64,000 nucleotides of DNA from Bacteroidota bacterium (lineage in GTDB: Bacteria; Bacteroidota; Ignavibacteria; Ignavibacteriales; Melioribacteraceae), in NCBI GenBank assembly GCA_018818065.1, contig JAHISV010000007.1:186001-250000 (forward strand), given 5' to 3'. The translations under genes were made by a program, and so were the position numbers. Shown here piece after piece: positions 28,098 through 34,513 of this stretch (position 1 is its first letter; every line of letters starts with the position of its first letter). Below the pieces are notes generated by a model that had not been told where the DNA came from, searched no databases, and saw only the letters and a program-made list of their open reading frames with translations.

Positions 28098-29357
28098 TTA
28101 GTAAATGAATTTGCTGATAATAAATATTAGTGAAAAAAGAATTAGAAAAATAATTCCGCACCAACTCAATATTTTCAGCCACTTTTTTGGTCTATCGGTT
28201 TCAGGCATAAAATCAGAAGTAACAACTTTGTAGTTAATAATTGCGAAAACCGGAGCAGCTAAAAAGGAAACGATTGCCGCAAAGTCGAGCAGTGTTTTCA
28301 GTCCGCTTGTAAATAGTCCGATAATGATGAGAGAAGTAATCACCATTAATATACCAAACCACCAGTAAAAAGAATCGACCGAAGTTTTGAGCTTAGTAGA
28401 AATTAGCTTTAAGGAACCCGCCAGAGTTCGCGGATAGGCATCGAAAACAGTTAGCGTTGTGCTCATCATTGTGATGAACACGATGGTAGCAATGATTATC
28501 TCGCTCCACTCGCCAATGGTCTTGGTATAAAGAGAAACAAGTTGTGATGAGAACACGACACCACTGTTGGAAAATGTTTCGCCGCTGCCGAACATAACAA
28601 AGGCACCTAAACCAACAAAAAATAGCGCCATTATTGTAGTGCCGATGTAGCCTATGTGGAAATCCACCAGCGCTTCTTTTAAGGTTGGTTTGTACCTGGT
28701 CTGCTTACTTCGTTCAATTGCCCAAAGTGAGGGCCATACAGAAGATTCAATAGGAGCAGGCATCCATCCCATTAATGCAAGCAGAAAAGCAATACCCGCG
28801 GCATCCCAAAGTTCCGGTTGAGTAACTGTTTGATGGAGGCGTGTGGGATCTTTAATAGCAATTGTTATCAGTACGGTGGCAATAGTTGTAATGGCAAGGA
28901 GGGCAATCATCACTTTCATTATGCTGTCAAGGAAAGAATATCGACCAACAAACAGAACCGCCATAGTAACTAATAATACAAAAAGACTTATGATCATGGG
29001 CGAAAACGTTAGTCCAAACAGGTTGGCACACAAACCAGCAGTTACCAGCGTTACTGCGGCCGCGTTAATGATTGAAGTAAATACATTCATAATAAAAAAT
29101 AACATTACAGTTGGCCGCCCAAGCTTGAGATAGCCTTCGAGAAGGGACTCACCTGTTGAGGCTGTATATCTATGTCCAAATTCAAAGAACGGGTACTTGA
29201 ATAAATTTATTAGCAGAACAAGAACCAGCAGGTCTAATCCGAAATTTGCTCCCGCCCTTGTTGATTGAATTAGATGTGAACCACCAATGGCTGCACCGGC
29301 AAAGAGAATTCCGGGACCGATTGTTTTAAGAAGATTTTTAACTTTACCGTCTTTCAT
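28098..29357 (-). CDS. Nramp-family transporter with altered metal-site motifs
   Basis: 419 residues and about 11 membrane segments. The start LLKTIGPGILFAGAAIGGSHLIQSTRAG aligns with the Nramp first helix, but the Asp-Pro-Gly-Asn that holds the metal is replaced by IGGSH at residues 24-28. The sixth helix reads LLALMGWMPAPIES where classical members have Met-Pro-His. So it belongs to an Nramp-related branch that may carry another ion or solute. It lies 114 bp after the APC permease gene and 13 bp before the SH3 lipoprotein gene. Confidence 0.85.
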   Translation of the reverse strand: MKDGKVKNLLKTIGPGILFAGAAIGGSHLIQSTRAGANFGLDLLVLVLLINLFKYPFFEFGHRYTASTGESLLEGYLKLGRPTVMLFFIMNVFTSIINAAAVTLVTAGLCANLFGLTFSPMIISLFVLLVTMAVLFVGRYSFLDSIMKVMIALLAITTIATVLITIAIKDPTRLHQTVTQPELWDAAGIAFLLALMGWMPAPIESSVWPSLWAIERSKQTRYKPTLKEALVDFHIGYIGTTIMALFFVGLGAFVMFGSGETFSNSGVVFSSQLVSLYTKTIGEWSEIIIATIVFITMMSTTLTVFDAYPRTLAGSLKLISTKLKTSVDSFYWWFGILMVITSLIIIGLFTSGLKTLLDFAAIVSFLAAPVFAIINYKVVTSDFMPETDRPKKWLKILSWCGIIFLILFSLIFIISKFIY

Positions 29358-29471: not shown

Positions 29472-30779
29472 TTATTTCTTTTTCATGTTAAGATAGATTG
29501 GAATCCCGGCTATGAGTAACAACGTACCCCAAAATATAATTTCAAGTCCGGCACCCATAATTGCCCAGGCTGAATAGAGAAGAGCCAGACTTGCAATAAT
29601 AATATGTTTAATAAGTTCTTTTCTAGGCGTATTTGCCTTTGCTCTGAGAAGGAGCACAATTTGAGAAAGTGAAACAAAAAAGTATGGAACCAGGCAAGCA
29701 AGAGTAGCCAGCAGTATAATAAAGGTAAATTTATCAACCAATCCTTCTGTATAGTTAAGACTTATAAGCAAAGTGACCAGAATACTTGAACCGATTAGTC
29801 CTATTACCGGTGTTCCTCTCTCGGAAACTCTGCCAAAGATTAAAGGAAATACTTTGTCACGAGCGGCAGCCATCGGAATCTGTCCCTGCAGCAATATCCA
29901 GCCATTCAAAGCACCAAAGCAGGAAATTACTGCACCAGCTGCAACAAGGTATTGTGCCGAATCACCAAAAATAATTTTAGCGGCATCAGCAAAAGGCGCT
30001 GTTGATTTTGCAAGAATTTCCGGCGAAATAATCCCCATTACAGCCGCGGTTCCGCCTATATAAATAACAGCGGTGATAATGGTTCCCCACAACGTTGCCC
30101 TGGGAATTGTTACTTCCGGATTTTTAATATTTTCTGCCGGGATTGTTCCGGACTCCAACCCAAGAAACGCCCATAAAGTTAAAGCCGCAGTTGCTGTTAT
30201 GGCTGTAAAGTCCGATTCACCACTGAGGTTAAAGGGTATAAAATGATCGGGGTTTAAATAAAACAATCCAAAAAATGAGATTAGTATCAGCGGCACCAAC
30301 TTAAGTATTGTTGTTACTAACTGAAGAATGCCAGCCTTTTTTACTCCCATACAATTGACAATAGTTAAGAGCCAGATGGCGGCTAATGCCGTAAGGGAGG
30401 CAAGCATATAATTTGTGGATAAGACAGGTATAAAAACGGCAAGATAACCAACAAACGCAACTGCTATTGCAGCGTTAGCACACCATATGGAAACCCAGTA
30501 ACCCCATGCAACAAGGAAGCCTAAAAAACTGCCAAGCCCCGCTTTAGTATAGATATATGGTCCACCTGTTTGCGGCATCATCCTACTGAAACGAGAAAAA
30601 ACCAAGGCTAAAAGTACAGCTCCTGCCGATGTAAACAACCATCCCACAATACTTAATCCGCCAAATACTGCCAGAGCAGCCGGAAGCAGAAATATTCCTG
30701 AACCAATCATGTTACCAACAACTATTGAGGTTGTTGTCCAAATACCAAGTTCACGTTTAATTCTAGGATCTGAATTCAT
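29472..30779 (-). CDS. APC-superfamily amino acid permease
   Basis: 435 residues with 12 membrane segments. The N terminus holds TTTSIVVGNMIGSGIFLLPAAL, the typical first helix with the GSGIF substrate motif, and helix 6 holds LTLWAFLGLESGTIPAE. This is the AdiC/YjeH-like type that moves amino acids or amines. It follows the homocysteine methyltransferase gene by 30 bases on the same strand, so it is probably the last gene of the corrinoid methyl-transfer operon and may bring in the methylated substrate. That link is inference; MmuP, the S-methylmethionine carrier, is also an APC protein next to a homocysteine methyltransferase. Confidence 0.88.
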   Translation of the reverse strand: MNSDPRIKRELGIWTTTSIVVGNMIGSGIFLLPAALAVFGGLSIVGWLFTSAGAVLLALVFSRFSRMMPQTGGPYIYTKAGLGSFLGFLVAWGYWVSIWCANAAIAVAFVGYLAVFIPVLSTNYMLASLTALAAIWLLTIVNCMGVKKAGILQLVTTILKLVPLILISFFGLFYLNPDHFIPFNLSGESDFTAITATAALTLWAFLGLESGTIPAENIKNPEVTIPRATLWGTIITAVIYIGGTAAVMGIISPEILAKSTAPFADAAKIIFGDSAQYLVAAGAVISCFGALNGWILLQGQIPMAAARDKVFPLIFGRVSERGTPVIGLIGSSILVTLLISLNYTEGLVDKFTFIILLATLACLVPYFFVSLSQIVLLLRAKANTPRKELIKHIIIASLALLYSAWAIMGAGLEIIFWGTLLLIAGIPIYLNMKKK

Positions 30780-30809
30780 TGAGTCACTTCCAGTTAATAA
30801 TCGGAATAT

Positions 30810-31697
30810 TTATTTCCATGTATCTACAATTCGTCTGATAGCCCTGATATGATTCGGTGTTGTACCGCAACATCCACCAATAATTGAGACACCAACTGAT
30901 TTCATTGCTGCCAAATGATGAGCAAAAAACTCAGGCGTTTCCGGGTAGATCAGATGTCCTTCTCTCACTTCAGGAAGACCTGCATTTGATTGAATAATAA
31001 TTGGCAGGTCAGAAACATTTCTGAATTCCCGCGCGATTTCAATCATATTCTCAATTCCATTTCCGCAGTTGGAACCAATAATATCAGCGCCAACTTCCTT
31101 CAGTCCCTCAGCGGCAGATGATATGTTCGTTCCCATTACTGTAAAGTACCCGCGTGGAATTTTATCAAACGTCATAGTCGTCATAACAGGAGTATCTTTT
31201 GAAAGAGCTTTTACGGATTCGATGGCGATTGCTGCCTCGCGTAAATCAGTCATTGTTTCAAAACAGATTATGTCCACTCCAGCCTCAATTAGAACACGTG
31301 TTTGGCGTTCAAACGCTTCATAAAGTAATTCAGGTTCGGCATCACCATAAGGCAAAAGCATCTTGCCCGACGGTCCACAAGAACCTGATATATATGCTTT
31401 GTCACCAACAACTTTTCTAACGGCTTCAACCGCTCTCTTATTAATTTCATCAGCTTCTCCTTCTAATCCATATTCCTTCAATCTCAGGACTGTACCGCCA
31501 AAAGTGTTTGTCTGGATGATGTCAGCGCCTGCTTCAAGATAAAACCTGGCAATCTCTTCAATCACCTCCGGATGATCAAGATTCATTTTTTCAGGGCAGT
31601 CTCCTCTTTGAAGTCCGCGTTGAAAAAGCATACTACCCATTGCTCCGTCACCAACAAGAATCTCACCGGCTTTAATTCTCTCCAGTATTGTTTTCAT
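30810..31697 (-). CDS. Homocysteine S-methyltransferase domain protein (MetH N-terminal/BhmT type)
   Basis: 295 residues, a single homocysteine-binding TIM barrel. The start GEILVGDGAMGSMLFQRG and DIIQTNTFGG fit MetH N-terminal modules. The zinc cysteines are Cys211 in IGSNCGNG and Cys276-Cys277 in GGCCGTTP. It would take a methyl group, most likely from the corrinoid protein encoded 21 bases upstream, and form methionine from homocysteine. An alternative is a MmuM-like enzyme using S-methylmethionine directly. The separate corrinoid and activation genes in the same operon favour the first view. Confidence 0.9.
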   Translation of the reverse strand: MKTILERIKAGEILVGDGAMGSMLFQRGLQRGDCPEKMNLDHPEVIEEIARFYLEAGADIIQTNTFGGTVLRLKEYGLEGEADEINKRAVEAVRKVVGDKAYISGSCGPSGKMLLPYGDAEPELLYEAFERQTRVLIEAGVDIICFETMTDLREAAIAIESVKALSKDTPVMTTMTFDKIPRGYFTVMGTNISSAAEGLKEVGADIIGSNCGNGIENMIEIAREFRNVSDLPIIIQSNAGLPEVREGHLIYPETPEFFAHHLAAMKSVGVSIIGGCCGTTPNHIRAIRRIVDTWK

Positions 31698-31718
31698 TAA
31701 TTTCTCTCCCGCAAACTA

Positions 31719-32348
31719 TTATATCAACAGTTTAATTTGATCAATTGCATTGGCAGCATCAAACGCATAGGCATCGGCACCATACTCGTCCGCAATATTT
31801 TTTGTTACAGGCGCACCACCTATAATAGTTTTTATATTGCCCTCAGGATCTTTCTCTTTCAGCATACTAATAATTTCTTTCATTACCGGCATTGTAGTTG
31901 TTAACAAGGCAGATAACCCGACAACGTTCGCCTTCTCAATAATTGCTGTTTCAACAAACTGTTCGGATGCAACATCCTTTCCCAAATCAATAACATCATA
32001 ACCGGCACCTTTAAGCATAATGCCCACAAGATTCTTTCCTATATCATGAACATCCCCTTTTACGGTACCTAATACAATTTTGCCCATGCCGGGAATTTTA
32101 TCTCTTTCTAAAAGCGGTTTTATTTGATTAAGCCCTGCCTGCATTGCCTTAGCGGCAAGAAGAACATCCGGGAGAAATATTTCATGATTCTTAAATTGTT
32201 TCCCGATAATCCCAATTCCGGCAAGAAGACCATCATCCAATATTTCCTTTGGAGAAATGCCCTCCTTGATGGCGATACCCGTTAGCTCAAATACTTTTTC
32301 GTCATCACCCTGTTGAAGATATTCTGAGATTTGATTTAATAATTCCAT
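31719..32348 (-). CDS. Corrinoid (B12-binding) methyltransferase protein
   Basis: 209 residues, the normal size of MtbC/MttC-type corrinoid proteins. The helical cap domain (about 1-85) is followed by a Rossmann domain with the cobalt-ligand motif Asp99-x-His101-x-x-Gly104 in VKGDVHDIGKNL. The SxL motif appears as GLSALLTTTM and a GG motif as IIGGAPV. It carries the methyl group on cobalt between the MttB-family enzyme and the acceptor enzyme. Gaps to its neighbours are 18 and 21 bases. Confidence 0.93.
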   Translation of the reverse strand: MELLNQISEYLQQGDDEKVFELTGIAIKEGISPKEILDDGLLAGIGIIGKQFKNHEIFLPDVLLAAKAMQAGLNQIKPLLERDKIPGMGKIVLGTVKGDVHDIGKNLVGIMLKGAGYDVIDLGKDVASEQFVETAIIEKANVVGLSALLTTTMPVMKEIISMLKEKDPEGNIKTIIGGAPVTKNIADEYGADAYAFDAANAIDQIKLLI

Positions 32349-32366
32349 CTGGTTTCCAATATTGAT

Positions 32367-33053
32367 TTATTTTTTTAGGTTTTTCATTCTCGAAACACAT
32401 GTGTGATCGACGCAAGTAGAACAGAATTGAAAATTATTTCTAAACAGGTGAATTTCTTTTGGTCCTTTTATTATAACACCCGATACGGATTTTATGGGTT
32501 CCATAAGAAATGAATCACTCAAATGAACATCAATTTTTTCTGGTTTTAGAATTCTGAAAATCTCTGTCTGCCCAGCCAGATGCCACCCGCAATAACCCGG
32601 ACTATATCCGAGGACGGTTTCTTCTTCCCGTGAATTCCATTTTTCTGCGAAATAATCTTCCAGTAGACCAACTGAATTTTCAACCGCAAGGGATGCAATA
32701 GTATCCATCATTGAAGCGATTACTATCTCATTTTTGGTCATACATTCTTTGATTTTCTCTGTGACCACTCCCCCAACAGTAATGACAAAAAGAGCTATTT
32801 GATCGGCAGCGGAATAAATACTTTGCAGCGGATTTTCTTCTTCATTAAGTCCGGAGGCGTTGAAAATTTCATCAAAGATTTCTTTAGAAATTTCCTCTGC
32901 GAGATATTGCGGCTTTGCGGAGGATTGAAATATTTCAAGAGCAGAATAAAAGTCCAGTCGAATAGCCTCTTTTATTGTTGCCTGCTCAGGCACACCTTGT
33001 CTGCGGAGTACATCAGAAAACGAAGGTACTATTTGTGAAGTAATCAGTTCCAC
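32367..33053 (-). CDS. MetH-type reactivation domain protein
   Basis: 228 residues. The VLGYSPGYCGWHLAGQTEIF segment and the SFLMEPIKSVSGVI ending are the signature of the SAM-binding activation domain of B12-dependent methionine synthase, here as a separate protein. It would rescue oxidised cob(II)alamin on the neighbouring corrinoid protein with SAM and an electron donor. After the domain comes FCSTCVDHTCVSRM, a Cys-rich tail that could hold a metal or Fe-S cluster. The start is GTG; the TAG stop of the MttB gene shares its G with it (TAGTG), so translation is coupled. Confidence 0.88.
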   Translation of the reverse strand: MELITSQIVPSFSDVLRRQGVPEQATIKEAIRLDFYSALEIFQSSAKPQYLAEEISKEIFDEIFNASGLNEEENPLQSIYSAADQIALFVITVGGVVTEKIKECMTKNEIVIASMMDTIASLAVENSVGLLEDYFAEKWNSREEETVLGYSPGYCGWHLAGQTEIFRILKPEKIDVHLSDSFLMEPIKSVSGVIIKGPKEIHLFRNNFQFCSTCVDHTCVSRMKNLKK

Positions 33054-34513
33054 TACACTTCCCTCTCAGGCAGCGAACCCTGTCCATGTGTCTTAGCTTC
33101 CTGTTCCATAAGGTTAATTAACTCTTTTCTAACCTCATCAGTAAGGTGAGATGAACTATATTCGCTTACAAGTCTTTCCACCTCAGAATGCGCACGTTGA
33201 AGCAGTGTTGTTGAACCCTCTTCTATCCAGCGTGAACGGCTGGCACGATTAATAATACTGCCCGGGAAATGATGCTCCGTACGTAAGTGTTTTCTCGTAT
33301 GCTTGGAAATTAGCAGATGCTCTTCTTCAAGAAGTTCGGTAAAAAGAGAGATTGCGGGGAAATCATCCTTCGGTTCAATCCCCTTTATCATTCGCAGAGT
33401 TTTTCCACACACTTCATTATCGAAGACAAGTTTTTCCAGACTGAAACAGTTTTCAAAATCCATCATGCCGGGACCGGAGATATTGTTGATACCTGACAGG
33501 GCTGCCAGTGTGGCGCCCATTCCATCTTCAAGTCCTGCCTGAGCGTCAAGGAATTTCGAATCGCTTAGAGCAATATAGGCCTGGGTTGGAATTCCAAGGT
33601 ATTTGCCAATTTCATTATAAGCGCAATCAATCATCATGGTTTCAACGGCGCCCATGGGTGTGGTTTCGTACCTGATATCAAAAATTGCGGGCGAACCACC
33701 ATATAGAATTGGAGTTCCGGGATTTGTCATTTGGCTGATTACAATTCCGCTAAGAGTTTCTGCAGTATGTTGGATGAGAGTTCCTGTAAGAGTAACGGGA
33801 GAAATAAAACCAGCCATGGGCATACAGACAATTTCAACAGGAATTGAATATCTGGCGCAGTCCGTTAAATTCTGCGAGGAAACATCTCCCCACTTTAAGG
33901 GGGAAGTTGGACAAGCGGTAAATACAGAAAGTGGTTTCTCTTTCAATGCTTCCTTCGATCCCCTAACGGTTACAAGAAAGTTTTTCATAACCTCAAATGA
34001 TTCGGCTGTAAATGTGCCGGTAACAACAGGCTTACCGCTGTAAAGCAGACTAAGGAACAAACGATAACTATCCGCAAATTTATCTTGAACATCGGTAGGA
34101 ATAAACGCCGTACTTTGCGATGCTATGTATTTCAATTGATCGACAATTTTAACATACCGGATATAATCTTTTGTGAGAGGCTGCTTAATGTCCTGCGATT
34201 CGTAATCCAGAAAATTTATAGCAGAAGAGCCGGGAGTATAATGAATGTTATTACCAGAAAAATTATTTGTCTCATTGCCAGACGAGTCAAATAGTTGAAA
34301 ACTCTTAGGTACACTTTTGAGGGCACGCTCTATTATTTCATTCGTGAAGAACACTTTACTAGCATCATTTTCTATTCGCGCCCCGTAATCGGCTAGCTTA
34401 GAAACCAGTTCCGGGTTTTCGATTTTTACCCCAAGTTTGCAGAGTATATCTTTTGCCTCGGAAATGATTTGTTCTATCAGACTTTTCGAAAGGAATTTAA
34501 CTGTTGGTCTCAT
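33053..34513 (-). CDS. MttB-family methyltransferase without pyrrolysine
   Basis: 486 residues, full length for the trimethylamine methyltransferase family. The N-terminal helices (AKDILCKLGVKIENPE), the NIHYTPGSSAINFLDY segment and the later TLIQHTAETLSGIVISQM and ALSGINNISGPGMMDF blocks fit the MttB TIM barrel. There is no in-frame TAG inside the gene, so it is of the non-pyrrolysine group, which includes glycine betaine, proline betaine and carnitine demethylases. It would pass a methyl group from a quaternary or tertiary amine to the corrinoid protein. It is the first gene of the operon. The substrate is unknown. Confidence 0.9.
   Translation of the reverse strand: MRPTVKFLSKSLIEQIISEAKDILCKLGVKIENPELVSKLADYGARIENDASKVFFTNEIIERALKSVPKSFQLFDSSGNETNNFSGNNIHYTPGSSAINFLDYESQDIKQPLTKDYIRYVKIVDQLKYIASQSTAFIPTDVQDKFADSYRLFLSLLYSGKPVVTGTFTAESFEVMKNFLVTVRGSKEALKEKPLSVFTACPTSPLKWGDVSSQNLTDCARYSIPVEIVCMPMAGFISPVTLTGTLIQHTAETLSGIVISQMTNPGTPILYGGSPAIFDIRYETTPMGAVETMMIDCAYNEIGKYLGIPTQAYIALSDSKFLDAQAGLEDGMGATLAALSGINNISGPGMMDFENCFSLEKLVFDNEVCGKTLRMIKGIEPKDDFPAISLFTELLEEEHLLISKHTRKHLRTEHHFPGSIINRASRSRWIEEGSTTLLQRAHSEVERLVSEYSSSHLTDEVRKELINLMEQEAKTHGQGSLPEREV

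Follow-up and report, generated by a model that had tools for sequence, protein, structure and literature searches.

A conserved four-gene operon as a candidate folate-independent, cobalamin-dependent methionine synthase

Introduction

Can homocysteine be methylated to methionine through cobalamin in a way that bypasses methyl-folate altogether? The question is raised by a tight five-gene operon on the minus strand of a Bacteroidota genome of the class Ignavibacteria (assembly GCA_018818065.1, contig JAHISV010000007.1). The operon occupies positions 29472-34513 of the 64,000-nucleotide stretch of DNA analysed here, hereafter the window. Its first four genes encode an MttB-family methyltransferase, a free activation protein of the type found within the methionine synthase MetH (ACT), a corrinoid-binding protein (COR) and a homocysteine S-methyltransferase (HMT), and an APC permease follows. 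A first-pass annotation of this DNA had seen in them a methionine synthase taken apart, in which MttB stands in for the folate module. In our judgement the four genes probably form a split, folate-independent, cobalamin-dependent methionine synthase. The operon is widespread and represents a variant of known split systems, with the folate part replaced by MttB and with ACT as the activator.

The operon and its proposed reaction

Open reading frames (ORFs) and Pfam profiles bear out the gene content and the positions first reported for the operon. In the order of transcription its genes are:

33053-34513, minus strand: MttB-superfamily corrinoid methyltransferase, non-pyrrolysine, proposed methyl-donor module (486 aa; PF06253, 239 bits)
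32367-33053, minus strand: ACT, free MetH-type activation protein, proposed cobalamin reactivator (228 aa; PF02965, 38.8 bits, above the cut-off of 25 bits)
31719-32348, minus strand: COR, corrinoid-binding protein, predicted methyl carrier (209 aa; PF02310 and PF02607)
30810-31697, minus strand: HMT, homocysteine S-methyltransferase, predicted methyl-acceptor module (295 aa; PF02574, 236 bits)
29472-30779, minus strand: APC permease, arginine/agmatine-antiporter-like (435 aa; PF13520)

The ACT gene starts with GTG and overlaps the mttB stop codon by one base, and the remaining gaps are 18 (ACT/COR), 21 (COR/HMT) and 30 bases (HMT/APC).

In the proposed cycle MttB would demethylate a small donor compound, most probably a quaternary amine, and place the methyl group on Co(I) of COR, and HMT would pass it on from methyl-Co(III) to zinc-bound homocysteine, yielding methionine. 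Should Co(I) be oxidised to Co(II), ACT would restore it, either by a MetH-like reductive methylation with S-adenosylmethionine (SAM) or by passing electrons through a metal or Fe-S site built from four cysteines. A methyl-folate step would not be needed. We infer the direction and the partners of methyl transfer from the observed gene content, folds, motifs, linkage, co-evolution and genome-level absences described below.

One module in many phyla

How widely is this set of genes shared? Scanning 84,980 species genomes with the MttB pair yielded 80 loci. Counting the window with them, ACT adjoins or lies near MttB in 51, and all four genes are full length in 34, the window among them. The strict order MttB-ACT-COR-HMT is kept in 31 of the 33 full-length loci outside the window, and most junctions are short or overlapping. 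The two exceptions are a locus with ACT first (L044) and one that was scored out of order solely through an extended overlapping frame (L077). The phylum labels comprise Cloacimonadota, Neomarinimicrobiota, Stahlbacteria, WOR-3, Planctomycetota, Zixibacteria, Gemmatimonadota, Fermentibacteria/Aegiribacteria, Electryoneota, Eisenbacteria, Acidobacteriota, Ignavibacteriota and Bacteroidota. For each of the six pairings of the four proteins the distance matrices are correlated (r 0.62-0.81, Mantel p 0.001), a correlation to which shared descent by itself contributes. The 34 full-length loci and this co-evolution establish that the grouping of the four genes is not due to chance, and the earlier idea that they make up one conserved module stands.

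The genes around the operon behave differently: once the flanks are clustered, no conservation is seen among them, as expected of a biosynthetic unit and not of a catabolic island. Two further observations concern single loci. In L029 (7160-8301) the operon is intact but for two small ORFs, by their appearance possibly a toxin-antitoxin pair, that separate COR from HMT. In L081 (JABMPU010000182.1), labelled Armatimonadetes, MttB and the downstream ABC transporter genes resemble those of the Cloacimonadota loci L017 and L068, and the label of this metagenome-assembled genome (MAG) is probably wrong.

Of 395 genomes of the host phylum only 3 have a similar MttB, the host itself among them; another of the three, G172, has the same four genes, with an MttB identity of 60%. 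Since the window MttB groups with that of L023 and with Cloacimonadota and not with other Bacteroidota, its sequence suggests that the host gained the operon horizontally.

Routes to methionine in the host and in other carriers

Does the host depend on the operon for its methionine? The contigs of its genome (3.95 Mb, 87% complete), searched by family, hold a complete MetH of 1243 aa with its own activation domain (contig C13) and MTHFR. The operon is therefore an addition to normal methionine synthesis in this organism, and the notion of a methionine synthase taken apart does not describe the host. The first-pass annotation had proposed looking for a full metH or metE; the former is present, and a MetE-type protein (PF01717) is absent from the host contigs. 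What the operon could do here is supplement MetH, sparing methyl groups made by MTHFR whenever the donor is available. The host contigs encode a single MttB. Besides HMT they hold a further free PF02574 protein, 292 aa long (L006, G000:C9:67498-68313), which lies between glycosyltransferase-like and ispE-like genes, far from methionine genes.

In a host that keeps MetH and MTHFR, the originally proposed methionine synthesis without methyl-folate would be an extra route; the gene content of four MAGs is as that proposal predicts. Alongside the operon these encode FolP, but neither MetH nor MetE (PF01717), MTHFR (PF02219) or another free PF00809 protein. One belongs to Cloacimonadota (G395) and two to Zixibacteria (G419, G436); the fourth (G437) is labelled Armatimonadetes but resembles Cloacimonadota in its MttB and downstream genes. 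Gaps in the assemblies are a less likely explanation, because two independent pairs of relatives show the same absence. In such lineages the operon appears to be the sole methionine synthase. Another carrier (G431) likewise lacks the MetH, MetE and MTHFR routes, but has another HMT, and the 1.1 Mb genome G397 is without even FolP and is uninformative. A bolder claim, which we put forward only tentatively, and hold to be less likely than not, is that a MetH-type (PF02574) folate-independent enzyme, distinct from the four MetE-type Mes families, is the sole methionine synthase of several uncultured lineages (Cloacimonadota, Zixibacteria), fed by a widely available donor and maintained by a new kind of reactivator that combines a MetH-domain fold with a four-cysteine metal or Fe-S site.

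Could the methyl group be destined for folate after all? The operon might serve catabolic demethylation for folate-linked one-carbon oxidation, as in MtgBCD, with HMT as an accessory and with transfer to folate by a reversed MetH or by an unrecognised methyltransferase. Known MttB relatives do pass the methyl group to tetrahydrofolate or coenzyme M (PMC12155760, PMC6855144), and Ruegeria pomeroyi uses the same corrinoid protein for both purposes (PMC12478193). We nevertheless regard this explanation as unlikely. No free pterin methyltransferase that could act as an MtgD-like partner accompanies the operon: PF00809 is represented by FolP alone in the MetH-less MAGs and by FolP and MetH in the host, in a search that did not include the MtrH-like family, which may hold MtgA. 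MTHFR, which is required for the oxidation of methyl-folate, is absent from several carriers. Moreover, HMT lies within the operon in every complete locus, and the flanks show no recurring catabolic genes.

The corrinoid protein and the proposed methyl acceptor

The predicted zinc ligands of HMT, Cys211, Cys276 and Cys277, already picked out in the first reading, are present in the sequence and align with motifs of Thermotoga maritima MetH. The homocysteine domain of that same MetH is the closest solved relative (1q7m, 199 bits, versus 87 for BHMT and 56 for the free homocysteine S-methyltransferase 5dml). The corrinoid motif Asp-x-His101-x-x-Gly was likewise read correctly: COR carries GDVHDIG with His101, and its best NCBIfam match is MtgC (NF047996) with 208 bits, versus 133 bits for MetH.

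The outgroups are instructive. In Aminicenantes the arrangements are RACo-COR-MttB (L083, L087) and RACo-HMT-COR-MttB (L096), with RACo confirmed by Pfam, and Chloroflexi have MttB-COR-HMT without ACT. Because the linked activator varies in these sister lineages while HMT stays, the comparison of gene neighbourhoods points to HMT as the methyl-acceptor enzyme and suggests that ACT and RACo are alternatives for the repair.

A second explanation would separate the operon into two unlinked activities, with HMT taking betaine, dimethylsulfoniopropionate (DMSP) or S-methylmethionine directly, without COR, and MttB-COR-ACT doing something else. BHMT and MmuM are indeed PF02574 proteins, and purified Bmt of Phaeobacter inhibens needs no cobalamin to form methionine from DMSP and betaine (PMC12366255). 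This is nonetheless improbable in view of the much closer match of HMT to the MetH homocysteine domain, and it would leave unexplained both the co-evolution of HMT with COR and ACT and the outgroup linkage of HMT to MttB-COR. In a comparison made by eye only, HMT is also missing the aromatic betaine ligands of human BHMT, which we take to be Trp44 and Tyr77.

ACT and the proposed repair of cobalamin

How would such a split enzyme recover from oxidation of its cofactor? Both profile and fold place ACT among the PF02965 activation proteins. The top solved match of its AlphaFold2 model (pLDDT 95.5, pTM 0.90) is TM0269 of T. maritima (1j6r, E 1.9e-12), followed by the reactivation domains of E. 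coli, Thermus and human MetH, and the predicted structure is that of a genuine reactivation domain. TM0269 resembles ACT in being a free activation domain with the same fold and a PGY motif; it differs in reading GYGDL in place of GYCGW, and the match stops before the CxxCx4C tail of ACT.

Conservation of single residues across relatives was taken from alignments of ACT and of MttB only. PGY is retained in ACT, but the Arg of RxxPGY, which belongs to the SAM site, gives way to Gly in the window and is kept in just 20 of 51 relatives. Four cysteines, Cys155 in PGYCGW and Cys211/214/219 in the C-terminal CxxCx4C, are invariant in 44 aligned ACT proteins and absent from MetH and TM0269. Their pattern suggests a metal (zinc) or Fe-S site. 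Use of SAM by ACT is uncertain, because the key Arg is often absent and the four cysteines are invariant; the SAM-based repair suggested at first draws on the fold and not on these residues. The accompanying idea that no RACo-type activator takes part is supported: RACo (PF14574) is absent from the contigs of the host genome and none was found in 37 of the 43 operon-carrying genomes searched. The two kinds of protein can coexist, as in the Aminicenantes locus L087, where a Cys-less ACT-like ORF stands beside RACo-COR-MttB. No plasmid relatives of ACT were found.

That ACT mainly reactivates MetH or several corrinoid enzymes, the operon being spare parts of MetH and not an independent synthase, we consider very improbable: in five genomes (G411, G423, G425, G426, G427) ACT is the only PF02965 protein found and may also serve a MetH-like ORF of 789-797 aa that lacks an activation domain, but in most MetH-bearing carriers, the host included, MetH comes with an activation domain, and the operon is also present where MetH is absent.

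MttB and the methyl donor

Returning to the split methionine synthase, which methyl donor would feed it? The mttB gene has no in-frame stop, and CTA (Leu316) occupies the pyrrolysine position, so that the first description of MttB as free of pyrrolysine was accurate. TIM-barrel fold, family profile and lack of pyrrolysine make it a non-pyrrolysine member of PF06253. It is not a pyrrolysine-dependent trimethylamine methyltransferase: there is no amber codon, and the NCBIfam model trimeth_pyl reaches 357 bits, below its cut-off of 525. A match to PYLIS_3 (33469-33567, minus strand, inside mttB) is the only Rfam match, passes the gathering score and recurs in many related loci. It was rejected as a sign of pyrrolysine, the mttB genes being without amber codon; the model seems to pick up mttB coding sequence, which makes for a misleading annotation.

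The AlphaFold2 model of MttB (pLDDT 89.8) finds as its top folds in the PDB MttB of Methanosarcina (7xcl) and MtgB of Desulfitobacterium (9yce), with a TM score of 0.92. Phylogenetically, MttB belongs to what its sequence identifies as a new conserved clade of the superfamily, with 70 rows, full SH-aLRT support and more than 12 phylum labels. All five residues proposed to bind glycine betaine in MtgB, namely Y94, N199, R309, H345 and F/Y353, which are docking-based proposals and not measured (PMC6855144), are replaced in the window MttB, by S96, C201, Q311, S346 and E354. The replacements are themselves nearly invariant across the 70 proteins and many phyla; the clade therefore probably shares one specific substrate, bound otherwise than proposed for MtgB.

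Known non-pyrrolysine MttB enzymes act on quaternary amines bearing an acid group (PMC12155760). The betaine or methylated amine named as donor in the first-pass annotation follows from superfamily membership and finds no echo in the pocket. Two attempts to narrow down the donor were given up. From the pocket no substrate could be assigned, MtgB-type residues being absent and no other template with a solved ligand matching; and among the neighbours the only recurrent genes in the clustered flanks are those of a few APC and ABC transporters. In Planctomycetota, five loci (L036, L037, L049, L057, L064) have an MttB of the same clade standing alone, with no adjoining COR, ACT or HMT; its partners may be encoded elsewhere in the genome.

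Several of these observations weigh against a folate-independent synthase. With a pocket so unlike that of MtgB, the class of donor is assigned through the superfamily. In about 25 of the 45 carrier genomes searched, MetH includes an activation domain, which often makes the module redundant, and the host combines a full MetH with MTHFR. The four genomes that lack these routes are MAGs and may be incomplete. Finally, control by a SAM or cobalamin riboswitch was rejected, none being detected with Rfam near the operon in the window or in 29 related loci.

Relation to known systems

Are there precedents for such an arrangement? The closest published systems are MtgBCDE of R. pomeroyi (PMC12478193) and the three-part MetH of P. 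inhibens (PMC5764234). Both have separate proteins for donor (PF06253), corrinoid and homocysteine methylation (PF02574), and MtgBCDE illustrates that the demethylation of a donor and the synthesis of methionine can share a single corrinoid protein. Mutation of mtgC or mtgD leaves R. pomeroyi auxotrophic for methionine and unable to use glycine betaine (PMC12478193). By analogy, MtgBCDE would offer a precedent for every proposed step. The differences are equally clear. The folate protein MtgD (PF00809) is essential there and has no counterpart in the window operon, and reactivation relies on RamA-like and DUF1638 proteins, in contrast to the PF02965-type four-cysteine ACT; in P. inhibens a search for PF02965 proteins came up empty (PMC5764234). 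Published marine Alpha-, Gamma- and Deltaproteobacteria usually have mtgE away from mtgBCD, one exception to this separation being Sinorhizobium meliloti, where MtgBCDE and two reactivation modules stand together (PMC12478193). The plasmid-borne MttB-family proteins of Roseobacter and Sinorhizobium fall into another clade, are only 24-27% identical to the window MttB and lie beside unrelated genes; on grounds of this identity and these neighbours they were rejected as the same system.

MetH itself shares with the operon a homocysteine module with a zinc Cys triad, a corrinoid cap and B12 domain with DxHxxG, and an activation domain. It differs in being one chain where the operon encodes four, in its PF00809 folate module, for which the operon has MttB, and in its activation domain, to which ACT adds extra cysteines and from which it often departs in lacking the SAM-site Arg. 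A MetH taken apart is a functional analogy only and not a statement of ancestry: MttB replaces the folate domain, and COR is closer to MtgC-type models. The folate-independent core methionine synthases MesA-MesD, for some of which a corrinoid protein is the probable methyl source (PMC7857596), likewise make methionine from homocysteine without methyl-folate, but are of the MetE type (PF01717), whereas HMT is of the MetH type (PF02574). MtgB, MtpB, MtcB, MtyB and MthB, in turn, also pair a non-pyrrolysine MttB enzyme with a small corrinoid protein, but their methyl group goes to tetrahydrofolate or coenzyme M and their activators are of the RamA/RamQ type (PMC12155760, PMC6855144). In the open-access literature we found no description of the four-gene combination.

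If a folate-independent synthase is indeed encoded here, the methyl groups of methionine and SAM would in many uncultured phyla come straight from methylated compounds via B12, bypassing folate. Predictions of methionine auxotrophy in such bacteria would be wrong, their B12 demand and their use of methylated osmolytes would be misjudged, and the MttB superfamily, most members of which are without known substrate, would gain an anabolic branch. The operon is also a small separable system in which to study the repair of B12 enzymes, because the linked activator (RACo or ACT) varies by lineage while the homocysteine enzyme stays.

The permease and neighbouring transporters

What remains is the fifth gene. 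The best NCBIfam match of the APC permease is PRK10644 (345 bits, below cut-off). An APC permease also follows HMT in L023, yet such genes occur in few loci and are not part of the core; apart from them no transporter recurs at the related loci. An imported methylated amine, as envisaged at first, is thus unsupported, the permease lying outside the conserved core and matching arginine/agmatine-type antiporters best. An Nramp-like transporter gene (28098-29357, same strand) begins 114 bases downstream of the APC gene and is possibly co-transcribed, and it too is outside the conserved core. In the related genome G172 (L013, 9640-15452) the operon has just upstream of it genes for a divergent APC permease, for a further member of PF02574 and for a protein resembling sodium-solute symporters, and these genes may hint at the donor.

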